Below, piece after piece: positions 23,893 to 28,580 of a stretch of 64,000 bases of DNA. Numbering within the stretch: the stretch's first letter is position 1; every line of letters starts with the position of its first letter. The notes beneath the pieces were generated by a model. The model saw nothing but the letters and a program-made list of their open reading frames with translations. It did no database searches and was not told the DNA's origin. The DNA comes from Jannaschia faecimaris. GTDB lineage: Bacteria; Pseudomonadota; Alphaproteobacteria; Rhodobacterales; Rhodobacteraceae. The position numbers were made by a program, and so were the translations under genes. The stretch is taken from positions 1-64,000 of the forward strand of contig NZ_FNPX01000005.1 in NCBI RefSeq assembly GCF_900107415.1, given 5' to 3'.

Positions 23893-24268
23893 ATCGACAA
23901 AATTGTCGTGCGGTACGAACCTGATCGCGCCCAAACGCGCCCCTGACATCAACGACCTATGCAACGGCTCCTTTGGCCGGCGGATCGCCAACGACCAGCC
24001 AAGGCCACGCGTGATCCACGGACCGTTGTCAGTTCTCGGCACCAATGACGCGGCCAGAGCCGTCAAATATCCAACATCAGGCCACGCGGTTTTCCAGATC
24101 AGCGCGCCGGTCAGAGCGGTCGCGCCGGGGTCGACCTTCGAAATGCGGCCCGGTTCATTCCGGTGACCCGCAAAAGTGATCCGTTTCACGATGAGTGCCA
24201 AGGTTGCACTTGGCAGGACACCATGCAACGAATTCTTCCCTAATTTCAGCCCAAGCGACGGATTGCGC
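23893..24268. other. Unassigned 376-bp gap between the IMPase-like gene and deoC
   Basis: No known gene is recognisable. The minus strand is open through the whole gap. Within it runs a hydrophobic segment, TALTGALIWKTAWPDVGYL then TALAASLV, encoded at about 24030-24120, and a GTG at about 24185 could start a peptide of roughly 90 residues. Codon bias is weaker than in neighbouring genes, so I do not call a gene. The deoC promoter should lie at the right end. Confidence 0.35.
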
Positions 24269-25222
24269 GTGACTGCCACAGACTTGCCCCGCAACGCCGG
24301 ATTGCCCTTCGACCCCGCCGTGGTCGAGGCGGTGCGCGTGAACACCCCCGCCACCCTGCGCCGGGCCGCCTCCCTTTCCGCGCGCCGGTCGCTCAAGAAG
24401 GACTATCAGGCCGCCTGGCTAGCCCGCGCAGTCAGCATGATCGACCTTACGACGCTGTCAGGCGACGACACGCCGGGCCGCGTCCGGCGGCTGTGCGCCA
24501 AGGCCCTTCAACCCGTCCGCCCCGATCTGCTGGACGCCATCGGCCTGCCGGACCTCACCACTGGAGCTGTCTGCGTCTATCACGAAATGGTGCCCACTGC
24601 CGTCGATGCTGTGCAGGGTCGCATCCCCGTGGCCGCCGTCTCCACCGGCTTCCCGGCGGGCCTGTCGCCGTTTCACCTGCGCATCCGGGAGATCGAGGAG
24701 AGTGTCGCCGCCGGTGCAACCGAAATCGACATCGTCATCTCCCGTCGTCACGTTCTGACCGGCAACTGGCAGGCGCTCTACGACGAGACGCGCCAAATGC
24801 GGGAGGCCTGCGGCGACGCGCATATGAAGGCGATCCTTGCGACCGGAGAACTTGGACCGCTGAAGAACGTGATGAAGGCCAGCATGGTGACGATGATGGC
24901 AGGATCGGACTTCATCAAAACCTCCACCGGCAAGGAAGCCGTAAACGCCACTCTGCCCGTCTCGCTGACCATGATGCGCGCGATCCGCACCTATGAGGGG
25001 ATGTCGGGCTTCAAGGTCGGTTACAAACCGGCGGGCGGCGTATCCAAGGCGAAGGACGCGATCACCTACCTGGCGCTGCTCAAGGAAGAACTGGGCAACC
25101 GCTGGCTGCGCCCCGACCTGTTCCGCTTCGGGGCCTCATCCCTGTTGGGCGACATTGAACGGCAGTTGGAGCATCACGTAACAGGTCGATATTCGGCCGG
25201 CTATAGGCACCCGCTGGGGTGA
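24269..25222 (+). CDS. deoC: Deoxyribose-phosphate aldolase
   Basis: This protein of about 317 residues cleaves 2-deoxyribose-5-phosphate to acetaldehyde and glyceraldehyde-3-phosphate. MIDLTTLSGDDT, AVSTGFPAGLSPFHLRI and GATEIDIVISR match the family. AHMKAILATGEL and SDFIKTSTGKEAVNATL supply the Schiff-base lysine and its neighbour, and GYKPAGGVSKAKDA the phosphate loop. The C-terminal tail RYSAGYRHPLG is typical of the long alphaproteobacterial form. The start is uncertain: GTG 24269 best fits homologous N termini, but the frame stays open to 24176. It is followed after 65 bp by ALDH16. Confidence 0.93.
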   Translation: MTATDLPRNAGLPFDPAVVEAVRVNTPATLRRAASLSARRSLKKDYQAAWLARAVSMIDLTTLSGDDTPGRVRRLCAKALQPVRPDLLDAIGLPDLTTGAVCVYHEMVPTAVDAVQGRIPVAAVSTGFPAGLSPFHLRIREIEESVAAGATEIDIVISRRHVLTGNWQALYDETRQMREACGDAHMKAILATGELGPLKNVMKASMVTMMAGSDFIKTSTGKEAVNATLPVSLTMMRAIRTYEGMSGFKVGYKPAGGVSKAKDAITYLALLKEELGNRWLRPDLFRFGASSLLGDIERQLEHHVTGRYSAGYRHPLG

Positions 25223-25287
25223 TGGGGTGGTGCGGGGGTCAGCCTCTCGCGCTCCCCGGCATGTTTAGGTAGCAAAGAAGGCGCAAA

Positions 25288-27597
25288 ATGACCGTGGCCG
25301 AAATTTTCGAAAGCATGGACTGGGGTCCCGCCCCCGAGGGACGCGGCGAGGCGGATGCCTGGCTGGACAGCCATGGGCGCAGGTTTGGGCATTTCGTCGA
25401 CGGCAAACGGCAAAAGCCCGGCAAAACCTTCGCAACGGTGAACCCCGCGACGGGCGAAGTGCTTGCCGAAGTCACGCAGGGCACCGAGGCCGATGTGAAA
25501 TCCGCCGTCAAAGCCGCGCGCAAGGCTGCCAAGGGCTGGGCCGCGACGCCGGACCATGACCGGGCGCGCGTCCTCTATGCCATCGCGCGCGGGCTGCAAA
25601 AGCACGGCCGTCTGTTTGCCGTTCTGGAAACGCTCGACACTGGCAAGCCCATCCGGGAGGCGCGCGACATCGACGTGGCTTTGGCGGCGCGACACTTCTA
25701 CCACCACGCAGGTCACGCGGAACTGCGCGAAGAGACCATGGGCGACGCGCAGCCTTGGGGCGTCTGTGGGCAGATCGTCCCGTGGAACTTCCCCCTCTTG
25801 ATGCTGTCCTGGAAAATCGCACCGGCACTCGCAATGGGCAACACGGTTGTCCTCAAACCCGCCGAATGGACGCCGCTGACCGCGCTGGCCTTTGCCGACA
25901 TCTGCGACCATGCTGGCGTGCCGCCGGGCGTCGTGAACATCGTGACCGGGGACGGTGCGACCGGGGCCGCGCTGACGGCCTCCGAAATCGACAAACTGGC
26001 GTTCACCGGATCGACCGAAGTAGGCCGCATTCTGCGCCGCGAAACGGCGGGTCGGGCCATGGGCGTGACGTTGGAGTTGGGCGGCAAGTCCCCCTATGTC
26101 GTCTTTGAGGACGCCGACATCGACTCCGCCGTCGAGGGCCTTGTCGATGCGATATGGTTCAATGGCGGGCAAGTCTGCTGCGCCGGCGCACGGCTCTTGG
26201 TGCAGGAGGGCATCGCCGAGGATTTTCTGACCCGCCTCAAGACCCGCATGTCCAAGATCCGCGTGGGTGATCCGCTGGACAAGGCGATCGACATGGGCGC
26301 GATGATCCACGCCGATCACAAGGCGAACGTGGAGGCGATGCTGGCCCGCACCTCAGGCACGATTACACGCGGCGCATGTCCGGACGGCTGCTACCTGCCG
26401 CCGATCCTGGTGACCGACCTGCACGGGTCCGACCCCTTGATGGCCGAGGAGGTCTTCGGCCCCGTCCTTGCCGCCACGACGTTCCGCACCCCGGCCGAAG
26501 CTGTGCAACTCGCCAACGACACACGATATGGCCTGGCCGCCTCGGTCTGGTCGCAGGACATCGATGTCGCGCTCGATACGGCACCGAAAATCCGGGCGGG
26601 CGTGGTCTGGGTGAACGGGACCAACATGCTGGACGCCGCCGCCCCATTCGGCGGCATGAAAGAGAGCGGTTTCGGACGCGAAGGCGGAGTTGCGGGGTTG
26701 CGCGCCTACGTGCGCCCGGCGACCGGGGCCAAGATGCCGGCGATCAAGACCTACAAAGCCGAGCTTGGCGCTCCGGACGATATCGACAGAACCGCCAAGA
26801 TGTATATCGGCGGCAAGCAGGCCCGCCCCGACGGCGGCTATACCCGTCCTGTCGTTGGGCCCAAGGGTGCCGTGGGCGAGGTGGGCATCGCCAATCGGAA
26901 AGACCTGCGCAACGCGGTCGAAGCAGCACAGGCTGCCAAAGCCTGGAGTGGATCCACCGGCCACCTTCGGGCTCAGATCCTGTATTATCTGGCCGAGAAC
27001 CTCTCGGCCCGCGCCGCAGACTTCGACGCCCGCCTGACGGCCCAGACCGGGGCCAAAGGCGAAACGGCGGAGGCGGTGCGCCACCTGTTCCGCTGGGCCG
27101 CCTGGGCGGACAAGTATGACGGGCGCACCCTGGGCGTGCCGACGGGTGGAATGGCCTTGGCGCTCAATGTGCCACGGGGGGTGGTCGGGGCATTCGCCTC
27201 CGAGGATCGCCCTCTGATCGCGATGGCCCAGGTGATTGGAGCGACTCTGGCGACGGGCAATCGGCTGGTGCTGGTCGCCCCGGAAAGCGCGCCGCTGACG
27301 GCGACGGACCTGTACCAGGTCATCGAAACGTCGGACATTCCGGCCGGCGTGCTGAATATCCTGACCGGCGACCACGCGGAATTGGCCGCGCAGATGGCCG
27401 GGCACATGGATATCGATGCGGTCTGGAGTTTCTCCGCCGCCGATATATCCACCACGATCGAGCGCGAGGCCGCCGTCGACCTGAAGCGGACTTGGGTCAA
27501 CAACGGGCGCACCCGCGACTGGACCGCAACCGATGCGGACCCTTTCCTCACCGCGGCAACGGACGTGCAAACGATCTGGATTCCCTTCGGGACCTGA
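25288..27597 (+). CDS. ALDH16-type tandem aldehyde dehydrogenase
   Basis: This 769-residue protein is built of two ALDH domains. The first is complete, with PWNFPL (Asn167), TLELGGKSP (Glu263) and FNGGQVCCAG (Cys297). From about residue 505 a second, shorter ALDH-like domain follows (YIGGKQARPDGGYTRPV, VPRGVVGAFASEDRPLI, GVLNILTGDHAELAA) that contains no cysteine at all and no catalytic Glu. This matches the bacterial ALDH16 layout, known structurally from a Loktanella protein. GAAGGCGCAAA precedes the ATG. Directly downstream of deoC, so acetaldehyde is a plausible substrate, but that is inference. Confidence 0.9.
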   Translation: MTVAEIFESMDWGPAPEGRGEADAWLDSHGRRFGHFVDGKRQKPGKTFATVNPATGEVLAEVTQGTEADVKSAVKAARKAAKGWAATPDHDRARVLYAIARGLQKHGRLFAVLETLDTGKPIREARDIDVALAARHFYHHAGHAELREETMGDAQPWGVCGQIVPWNFPLLMLSWKIAPALAMGNTVVLKPAEWTPLTALAFADICDHAGVPPGVVNIVTGDGATGAALTASEIDKLAFTGSTEVGRILRRETAGRAMGVTLELGGKSPYVVFEDADIDSAVEGLVDAIWFNGGQVCCAGARLLVQEGIAEDFLTRLKTRMSKIRVGDPLDKAIDMGAMIHADHKANVEAMLARTSGTITRGACPDGCYLPPILVTDLHGSDPLMAEEVFGPVLAATTFRTPAEAVQLANDTRYGLAASVWSQDIDVALDTAPKIRAGVVWVNGTNMLDAAAPFGGMKESGFGREGGVAGLRAYVRPATGAKMPAIKTYKAELGAPDDIDRTAKMYIGGKQARPDGGYTRPVVGPKGAVGEVGIANRKDLRNAVEAAQAAKAWSGSTGHLRAQILYYLAENLSARAADFDARLTAQTGAKGETAEAVRHLFRWAAWADKYDGRTLGVPTGGMALALNVPRGVVGAFASEDRPLIAMAQVIGATLATGNRLVLVAPESAPLTATDLYQVIETSDIPAGVLNILTGDHAELAAQMAGHMDIDAVWSFSAADISTTIEREAAVDLKRTWVNNGRTRDWTATDADPFLTAATDVQTIWIPFGT

Positions 27598-27659: not shown

Positions 27660-28580
27660 CTATTCGATGACCCGCACCTCCGGCGCGCCCAGCGTCAAAG
27701 TCTTCCGGATCACCGCAGCCAAGGTCCGGTAAGCATGCCCATGCGCCGCCGTCTGGCGCCAGACCATGCCGATGTCGCGTCCGGGTGCCGGGGACGACAG
27801 GGCCCGCGCCGTCACCAGATCTTCGCGCGCGACCTCGGACCGGACGTAAAGTGCCGGAAGCACCGACAGGCCTAACCCCGTCGCCACCATCTGCCGAAGC
27901 GTATCGAGCGATGTCCCTTCGTAATCGAGGGACAGATGCGCGCCAGTCTCGGCGCAGAGGGCGGCAACCGTCTCGTGCAGTCGGTGCCCGGCCTCCAGTG
28001 TCATCACAGTCTCACCGCGCAAGGCCGCCCGATCGACGACAGTGCTTGCGGTCAGGGGGTGGTCGCTCGGAAGGACAACCAGCAACGGCTCGTGGAACAA
28101 GGGCGCGACAGCAAGGTTCGGATCGTCCAGCGGCGTCGGAAAGAACAGCAGGTCCAGTGCCCCGTCCCGCAACCGCGTCAGAAGGTCCTGCGCCACGCCC
28201 TCGCGCACATAGAACTTCAACCTGGGATAGGCCGCATGCAACGCCGGGATCACCAGCGGCAGAAAATAAGACCCGAGCGACCCGACCACTCCAACCCGGA
28301 TCGTACCCGCGAGCGGGTCGGCCCCGGTGCGGGCTAGGGTCGCAATGTCGGCCACGTCCCGCAGGACGCCGCGCGCGCGCGCCGAGACGTCCGCGCCGAT
28401 GGGCGTCAGCGTCACGCCGGAGCGGGACCGCTCAACCAACTGCACGCCGAGCTTGTCCTCCAGTTCGCGCAGTTGGGTGGACAACGTCGGTTGCGTCACG
28501 TTCACGGATTCAGCCGCACGGCGAAAATGCAACGTGTCGGCAACCGCGACCAGGTATCGGAATTGTTGCAGGGTAGGCAT
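27660..28580 (-). CDS. OxyR-like LysR regulator lacking the peroxidatic cysteine
   Basis: This 306-residue protein has an N-terminal helix-turn-helix (FRRAAESVNVTQPTLSTQL) and a C-terminal domain very like OxyR: TLEAGHRLHETVAALCAETG, then GTSLDTLRQMVATGLGLSVLPALYV. In E. coli OxyR the corresponding segment is GHCLRDQ with Cys199. Here that position is Arg200, while the Cys208 equivalent (Cys209) is kept. Peroxide sensing by a disulfide is therefore not expected. I chose ATG 28580 (MPTLQQFRYL) as start. It is divergent from the second Mrp operon. Confidence 0.85.
   Translation of the reverse strand: MPTLQQFRYLVAVADTLHFRRAAESVNVTQPTLSTQLRELEDKLGVQLVERSRSGVTLTPIGADVSARARGVLRDVADIATLARTGADPLAGTIRVGVVGSLGSYFLPLVIPALHAAYPRLKFYVREGVAQDLLTRLRDGALDLLFFPTPLDDPNLAVAPLFHEPLLVVLPSDHPLTASTVVDRAALRGETVMTLEAGHRLHETVAALCAETGAHLSLDYEGTSLDTLRQMVATGLGLSVLPALYVRSEVAREDLVTARALSSPAPGRDIGMVWRQTAAHGHAYRTLAAVIRKTLTLGAPEVRVIE

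Follow-up and report, generated by a model that had tools for sequence, protein, structure and literature searches.

Strict pairing of an N-extended deoC gene with ALDH16 in Jannaschia faecimaris and across bacterial phyla

In the alphaproteobacterium Jannaschia faecimaris (Rhodobacteraceae), deoC, the gene of a deoxyribose-phosphate aldolase (DERA) with an N-terminal extension, is followed by the gene of ALDH16, an aldehyde dehydrogenase (ALDH) comprising a catalytic domain and a pseudo-ALDH domain. Both genes reside in a stretch of 64,000 nucleotides (nt), hereafter the window, corresponding to positions 1 to 64,000 of contig NZ_FNPX01000005.1 (assembly GCF_900107415.1). The deoC–ALDH16 pairing is real, widespread, and strict, and its conservation establishes the link of ALDH16 to DeoC. 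Likely (with a probability of about 0.78), the pair represents a two-gene catabolic unit, in which ALDH16 would operate as a dedicated dehydrogenase dependent on nicotinamide adenine dinucleotide (NAD) and converting acetaldehyde into acetate; acetaldehyde is very probably the substrate of this enzyme. The first-pass annotation of the window, made from the letters alone, had placed deoC next to an ALDH16-type tandem ALDH, and this was confirmed: a full-length ALDH16 is encoded 65 nt downstream of deoC on the same strand (Table 1).

Co-occurrence and linkage of deoC and ALDH16

Conservation of the pair among relatives, set beforehand as a test of the proposed link, was borne out within the family and in other phyla. 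The family sample comprised 198 Rhodobacteraceae genomes, one per genus and that of the window included, which were searched with the ALDH16 C-domain and DeoC as queries (thresholds: E < 1e-40 for ALDH16, E < 1e-100 for long DeoC). Both genes were found in 168 genomes, DeoC only in 3, ALDH16 only in 0, and neither in 27 (Fisher p ~3e-30, a value obtained before the three apparent exceptions were settled and ignoring genome relatedness). In these three genomes (G046, G159, and G172), the genes are in fact side by side, two of the cases being cuts at contig ends and one a divergent C-domain. After inspection, ALDH16 is thus present in 171/171 genomes with long DeoC vs. 0/27 others; among the latter, 12 gave a weaker DeoC match of the short type, and 15 gave none at E <= 1e-10.

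In the Pseudomonadota sample (299 genomes, some of them common to the family sample; ALDH16 at E <= 1e-25, long DeoC at 385 bits or more), ALDH16 and long DeoC were detected in the identical 27 genomes (Fisher p ~5e-39, also ignoring genome relatedness). The short DeoC was considered as an alternative partner of ALDH16 and rejected: 44 of the 299 genomes possess short DeoC only (<=160 bits; counted at E <= 1e-25), and ALDH16 was found in none of the 44. Both genes occur in the identical 7 of the 119 Acidobacteriota genomes. Among 151 Chloroflexota genomes, the ALDH16 C-domain was found in 52 and DeoC in 55, all 52 being within the 55; inspection of genome G532 added an ALDH16 of the split form (see below), bringing the count to 53/55 genomes with DeoC vs. 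0/96 without it. Overall, the co-occurrence of deoC and ALDH16 is far beyond chance.

The two genes are also neighbors in most cases. Among the 149 ALDH16 matches listed for Rhodobacteraceae outside the window (G028 and G091 are left out of the linkage classes), deoC is located upstream on the same strand in 135, where the distance from the end of the deoC match to the start of the C-domain is 1.5–2.8 kilobases (kb) with a median of 1.55 kb, hence there is room just for the catalytic domain between them; four further neighbors among the 149 were confirmed on loci L034–L037. In Pseudomonadota, deoC is, by coordinates, directly upstream or within ~0.8 kb in 26/27 genomes, and in the 27th (G252) the two genes sit on separate contigs, deoC closing the one and ALDH16 opening the other. 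In the 52 Chloroflexota genomes, the linkage is looser: 23 pairs are adjacent, and others lie within 10 kb of each other, 17 with both genes on one strand and 2 with the genes on opposite strands.

A scan made with the N-terminal part of DeoC only, covering one genome per species in 84,980 species, yielded 567 confirmed loci, the best 80 of which, i.e., those nearest to the query rather than a random sample, were inspected. ALDH16 directly follows deoC at 79 of these 80 loci, which belong to Pseudomonadota, Acidobacteriota, Chloroflexota, Gemmatimonadota, Verrucomicrobiota, and a SAR324 bacterium. The median gap over the 79 is 13 nt (<=20 nt in 55/79), and in five of them (L058, L081, L085, L089, and L093) the contig breaks off inside ALDH16. 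A 3.1-kb contig (L106) carries deoC without ALDH16, which is found on another contig of the same genome. When both genes were read together in 35 loci, with gene starts picked by script, 17 gaps were <=12 nt, two of them being overlaps.

The pair also occurs on large plasmids, ALDH16 being found in 153 plasmid records and DeoC in 178; the plasmid-borne pair of Sinorhizobium meliloti is locus L041. Two ALDH16 copies, each beside a deoC, were noted in genomes G082 (contigs C31 and C35) and G149 (C6 and C1); the copies of the latter match the Pacificitalea manganoxidans plasmid NZ_CP021409, C6 at the same coordinates. In loci L009 and L011, representing one lineage, two small open frames are situated between deoC and ALDH16, one of them of 93 amino acid residues (aa) and without a Pfam match. 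No relative of the window DeoC was found in the viral contigs searched with it. Open frames of up to 1266 aa (G188) were considered as candidates for a natural DeoC–ALDH16 fusion and rejected, as the genes of G188 are in different frames; no such fusion turned up (the longest DeoC frame noted is 679 aa, in G571), no dedicated fusion search having been made.

The two proteins and the split form of ALDH16

DeoC of the window is 317 aa long if GTG 24269 is the start; an alternative in-frame GTG upstream, at 24176, would give 348 aa. With 137.1 bits against the family model TIGR00126 (cut-off 117.3), it belongs to the class I DERA family; it also matches PF01791, and a fold search with its predicted model retrieved the DERA structures of Escherichia coli (PDB 1jcl and others), which share its fold and family. 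Residues D154, K217, and K253, which correspond to the catalytic residues of E. coli DERA (the Schiff-base lysine and its partner residues), are present and invariant in 35 relatives.

Table 1. Features of the deoC–ALDH16 pair in the window
Feature	Position	Strand	Basis
deoC, N-extended deoxyribose-phosphate aldolase	24269..25222	+	TIGR00126, PF01791, 37–38% identity to E. coli DERA structures
DeoC N-terminal extension (about residues 1–50)	24269..24418	+	Alignment starts of solved and short DeoCs, invariant residues, helical prediction
Spacer deoC–ALDH16, 65 nt	25223..25287	+	Gap between the two frames
ALDH16, fused two-domain aldehyde dehydrogenase, 769 aa	25288..27597	+	6mvr end-to-end match; PF00171 in two stretches
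Catalytic ALDH domain (about residues 1–485); C297/C298 at 26176–26181	25288..26742	+	Active-site residues invariant in 38/38
Pseudo-ALDH domain (about residues 495–769)	26770..27597	+	Aldedh profile 19–237 of 461; clade with split pseudo-subunits 100/100

The DeoCs paired with ALDH16 are hallmarked by ~50 extra N-terminal residues: the alignment of the solved DERAs to the window DeoC begins at query residue 48 or later, and that of the short DeoCs from the Pseudomonadota sample at residue 37 or later. E. coli DERA lacks this extension, and the E. coli-type short DeoC occurs without ALDH16 in that sample. Seven positions of the extension (N25, A28, R32, R39, R40, K43, and Q47) are invariant across 35 sequences, and the predicted model represents it as helices (the mean confidence score, pLDDT, is 88.7 for the whole model and 78–97 for the blocks spanning residues 11–50). 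A related N-terminal stretch is present in the five DeoCs inspected that accompany the split form of ALDH16. The extension is a clade mark of ALDH16-paired DeoCs; that it is perhaps a docking part is a conjecture. Human DERA, presumably 318 residues long, with a comparable extension and the matching residues shifted by one position towards the C-terminus, offers a lead only.

The best solved relative of the window ALDH16 is 6mvr, which is homologous to it end to end (query residues 1–768, 1024.8 bits), and the top chain other than the 6mvr/6mvu pair reaches 348.5 bits. We take 6mvr (together with 6mvs, 6mvt, and 6mvu) to be LsALDH16 of Loktanella sp., reported by Liu and Tanner in 2019. The nearest solved chains outside ALDH16 are ALDH1B1, RF2C, and ALDH2, all of which accept acetaldehyde. 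The two-domain layout is evident from the double occurrence of PF00171 in the single chain, the length of which agrees with the ~770–800 aa typical of ALDH16. Domain 1 holds C297, C298, E263, N167, and K190, invariant in 38/38 aligned ALDH16 proteins; their presumed roles, including that of E263 as the general base, are those known for ALDH2. Domain 2 matches the Pfam Aldedh profile only within its cofactor-fold half, hence the part bearing the catalytic cysteine is missing from it. The cysteines of the window ALDH16 are located at positions 160, 206, 297, 298, 364, and 368 only, so the lack of cysteines in domain 2, claimed by the first-pass annotation, holds for this protein; it does not hold as a family trait, since domain 2 contains 1–3 cysteines in 35/38 proteins and none in just 3/38.

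The pseudo-domain also exists as a separate gene. In 18 Chloroflexota loci (L132–L149), the ALDH16 C-domain is encoded by its own open frame adjoining that of a full catalytic ALDH, and the ELGGK motif and a VCCAG active site were found in 18/18 of these catalytic proteins. The catalytic and pseudo genes overlap by 1 or 4 nt in 7/18 loci and are 2–14 nt apart in 3/18; in 7/18, it is ambiguous where the second gene begins, its frame being open upstream, and a cupin gene is located between the two in L137. At 14/18 loci, a co-oriented deoC precedes them within the locus (directly adjacent at nine); it is next door on the opposite strand in L139 and L143, and 31 and 15 kb off in L134 and L138, respectively. 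The order deoC, catalytic ALDH, pseudo-subunit is also displayed by one actinomycete record, that of Nonomuraea gerenzanensis (L152:5452-8837).

For the pseudo-subunit of L146, the best solved match is the ALDH16 C-domain (residues 501–766 of 6mvr/6mvu; 164.7 bits, the next match having 124.4). A tree was built from 56 domain sequences, drawn from 15 fused proteins, 9/18 split loci, Nonomuraea, and six further ALDHs encoded by the genome of the window. In it, the C-domains of the fused and split forms constitute one clade (support 100/100), within which each form makes one group; the fused and split N-domains join with weaker support (86/70). By these comparisons, the pseudo-ALDH domain of the window is homologous to the free-standing gene of some Chloroflexota and one actinomycete. 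Either ALDH16 would have originated when two neighbors in a deoC operon were joined, or its separation into two genes would be the later event; the tree is silent on which. At L151:5817-8170, a fused-type ALDH16 of Chloroflexota has its halves in different frames, owing to a frameshift, a recent split, or an error in the assembly.

Function of the pair and rival explanations

In the proposed catabolic unit, DeoC would release acetaldehyde from the DNA sugar, and this toxic product would be oxidized by ALDH16 to acetate with NAD, whereas the pseudo-domain may play a structural or docking role. The chemistry is probably hydrolytic rather than acylating coenzyme A, since the general base E263 is present and the nearest solved relatives outside ALDH16 are of the ALDH1B1/ALDH2 type. 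The surroundings of the pair were surveyed in 40 loci and the window, family assignment being read on one member per cluster of neighbors. The pair is kept while its neighbors vary: deoB overlaps deoC in L014, a PfkB/ribokinase-family gene was found in 8/41 loci, RbsD in 4/41, and a DeoR regulator in 4/41; the gene of a SorC-type sugar-binding regulator overlaps deoC in L020 and L037, and sugar ATP-binding cassette (ABC) transporters are encoded near the pair in some loci. The deoxyribose-pathway genes among them were seen in divergent lineages. These neighbors reinforce the metabolic context which the first-pass annotation had proposed for bacterial ALDH16 and which the co-occurrence supports as well. 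In genome G088, where deoC is apart from ALDH16, a PnrA-like ABC transporter gene follows deoC. The genome of the window harbors a cdd-deoA-deoB-add-upp cluster on another contig (L131:6893-11386, G000:C13), and deoB is present in 186/198 Rhodobacteraceae genomes.

Two further observations concern the flanks of the pair. In the window, a LysR-type regulator is encoded at 27660–28580 on the opposite strand, just past ALDH16. In L016, from an alphaproteobacterial lineage, the genes of an IF-2B/MtnA-type isomerase and an ArsC-family protein flank the pair (L016:5459-6553 and L016:10547-10882); they might represent another sugar-phosphate route into DeoC.

Since the linkage to DeoC suits both products of this aldolase equally, ALDH16 could act on glyceraldehyde-3-phosphate (as a non-phosphorylating enzyme) or on another deoxyribose-derived aldehyde instead of acetaldehyde, and the families matched include a D-glyceraldehyde dehydrogenase model, though far under its cut-off (284.4 vs. 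760 bits). This explanation seems unlikely, considering the kinship of ALDH16 with ALDH1B1/ALDH2-type enzymes and the fact that glyceraldehyde-3-phosphate flows into glycolysis anyway, whereas acetaldehyde requires a sink. It is hardly probable, too, that the genes share no common molecule and either move as one transferable block or respond, under common regulation, to general aldehyde or DNA-debris stress. The presence of the pair on large plasmids and in scattered lineages would fit a transferable block, but the pair persists though its surroundings differ, fused and split ALDH16 retain the same partner, and co-occurrence even of unlinked genes (in Chloroflexota and in G085 and G088) means that hitch-hiking is no explanation. 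Very improbable is a scenario in which DeoC runs in the synthetic direction and ALDH16 keeps acetaldehyde low, limiting or tuning the formation of deoxyribose-5-phosphate: the aldolase reaction is reversible (PMC8346489), but the neighbors of the pair (deoB, the ribokinase-family gene, RbsD, and sugar uptake) are catabolic.

A bolder suggestion is that the DeoC clade and ALDH16 form a stable acetaldehyde-channelling complex, with the pseudo-ALDH domain or subunit and the N-terminal extension of DeoC as the docking parts; animals may then keep DERA and ALDH16A1 as partners, and the human pseudoenzyme would be DERA-associated. The conserved, predicted-helical extension of ALDH16-paired DeoCs hints only indirectly at such a complex, and the non-catalytic nature of human ALDH16A1 counts against the animal part of the suggestion, which as a whole is regarded as rather doubtful.

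A number of observations weigh against the proposed catabolic unit. Several other ALDHs of the window's genome might oxidize acetaldehyde. The 65-nt spacer, together with the lack of a promoter in a simple scan of the window (a terminator scan was likewise uninformative), leaves co-transcription in the window a presumption. The two genes are on different contigs in 8/149 of the listed Rhodobacteraceae matches, and inspection of the G085 and G088 loci proved that they are not neighbors there; in Chloroflexota, they are unlinked in 10/52 genomes (3 with more than 10 kb between them on the same contig and 7 on another contig). Two Chloroflexota genomes, G549 and G558, have DeoC and no ALDH16 was found in them, contig ends being unchecked. 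The genes checked between or near deoC and ALDH16 in some Chloroflexota (members of L132, L137, L164, L165, and L166) showed no nucleoside-pathway family besides DeoC. Finally, human ALDH16A1, being a pseudoenzyme, cannot serve at present to oxidize acetaldehyde.

Known systems and significance

A functional parallel is DmpFG, in which an acetaldehyde-releasing aldolase is paired with an acylating acetaldehyde dehydrogenase and channelling is established. It resembles deoC–ALDH16 in the pairing of such an aldolase with a dehydrogenase and differs from it in the aldolase family and the acylating chemistry; moreover, channelling would be conjectural for deoC–ALDH16. The SPU microcompartment loci likewise encode a DeoC-type aldolase together with an aldehyde dehydrogenase (AldDH), which may form acetyl-CoA; as far as the available text goes, these loci differ in being shell-encased and having no ALDH16 (PMC4207490).

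The window ALDH16 has the same two-domain chain as LsALDH16, in which a catalytic ALDH and a pseudo-ALDH domain are combined and which is reported to form a dimer mimicking an ALDH tetramer; neither deoC nor a physiological substrate is mentioned in the available passages of the review describing this structure (PMC8160307). In a 2023 review, the substrate and oligomeric state of ALDH16 are listed as unknown, and human ALDH16A1 is described as a pseudoenzyme which lacks the catalytic residues and is linked to gout (PMC10650815). By that description, it resembles the bacterial proteins in family name and two-domain layout, whereas the bacterial ALDH16 retains the catalytic residues. No link between ALDH16 and deoC was found in what was covered of the open-licence literature, including the available portions of PMC8160307, PMC6365646, PMC10650815, PMC4207490, and PMC8346489. 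The enzymes are individually of known kinds; neither their strict partnership nor the split form of ALDH16 came up in the open-licence literature covered.

ALDH16 has been an orphan enzyme, and a strictly conserved partner across phyla provides it with a partner protein and with a concrete hypothesis, namely the handling of acetaldehyde from DNA sugar. The two-gene form, in which the pseudo-domain is a subunit of its own, offers a natural route to studying that domain. If human ALDH16A1 were indeed DERA-associated, it would take part in the metabolism of nucleoside sugars, and this would be relevant to its link to gout.

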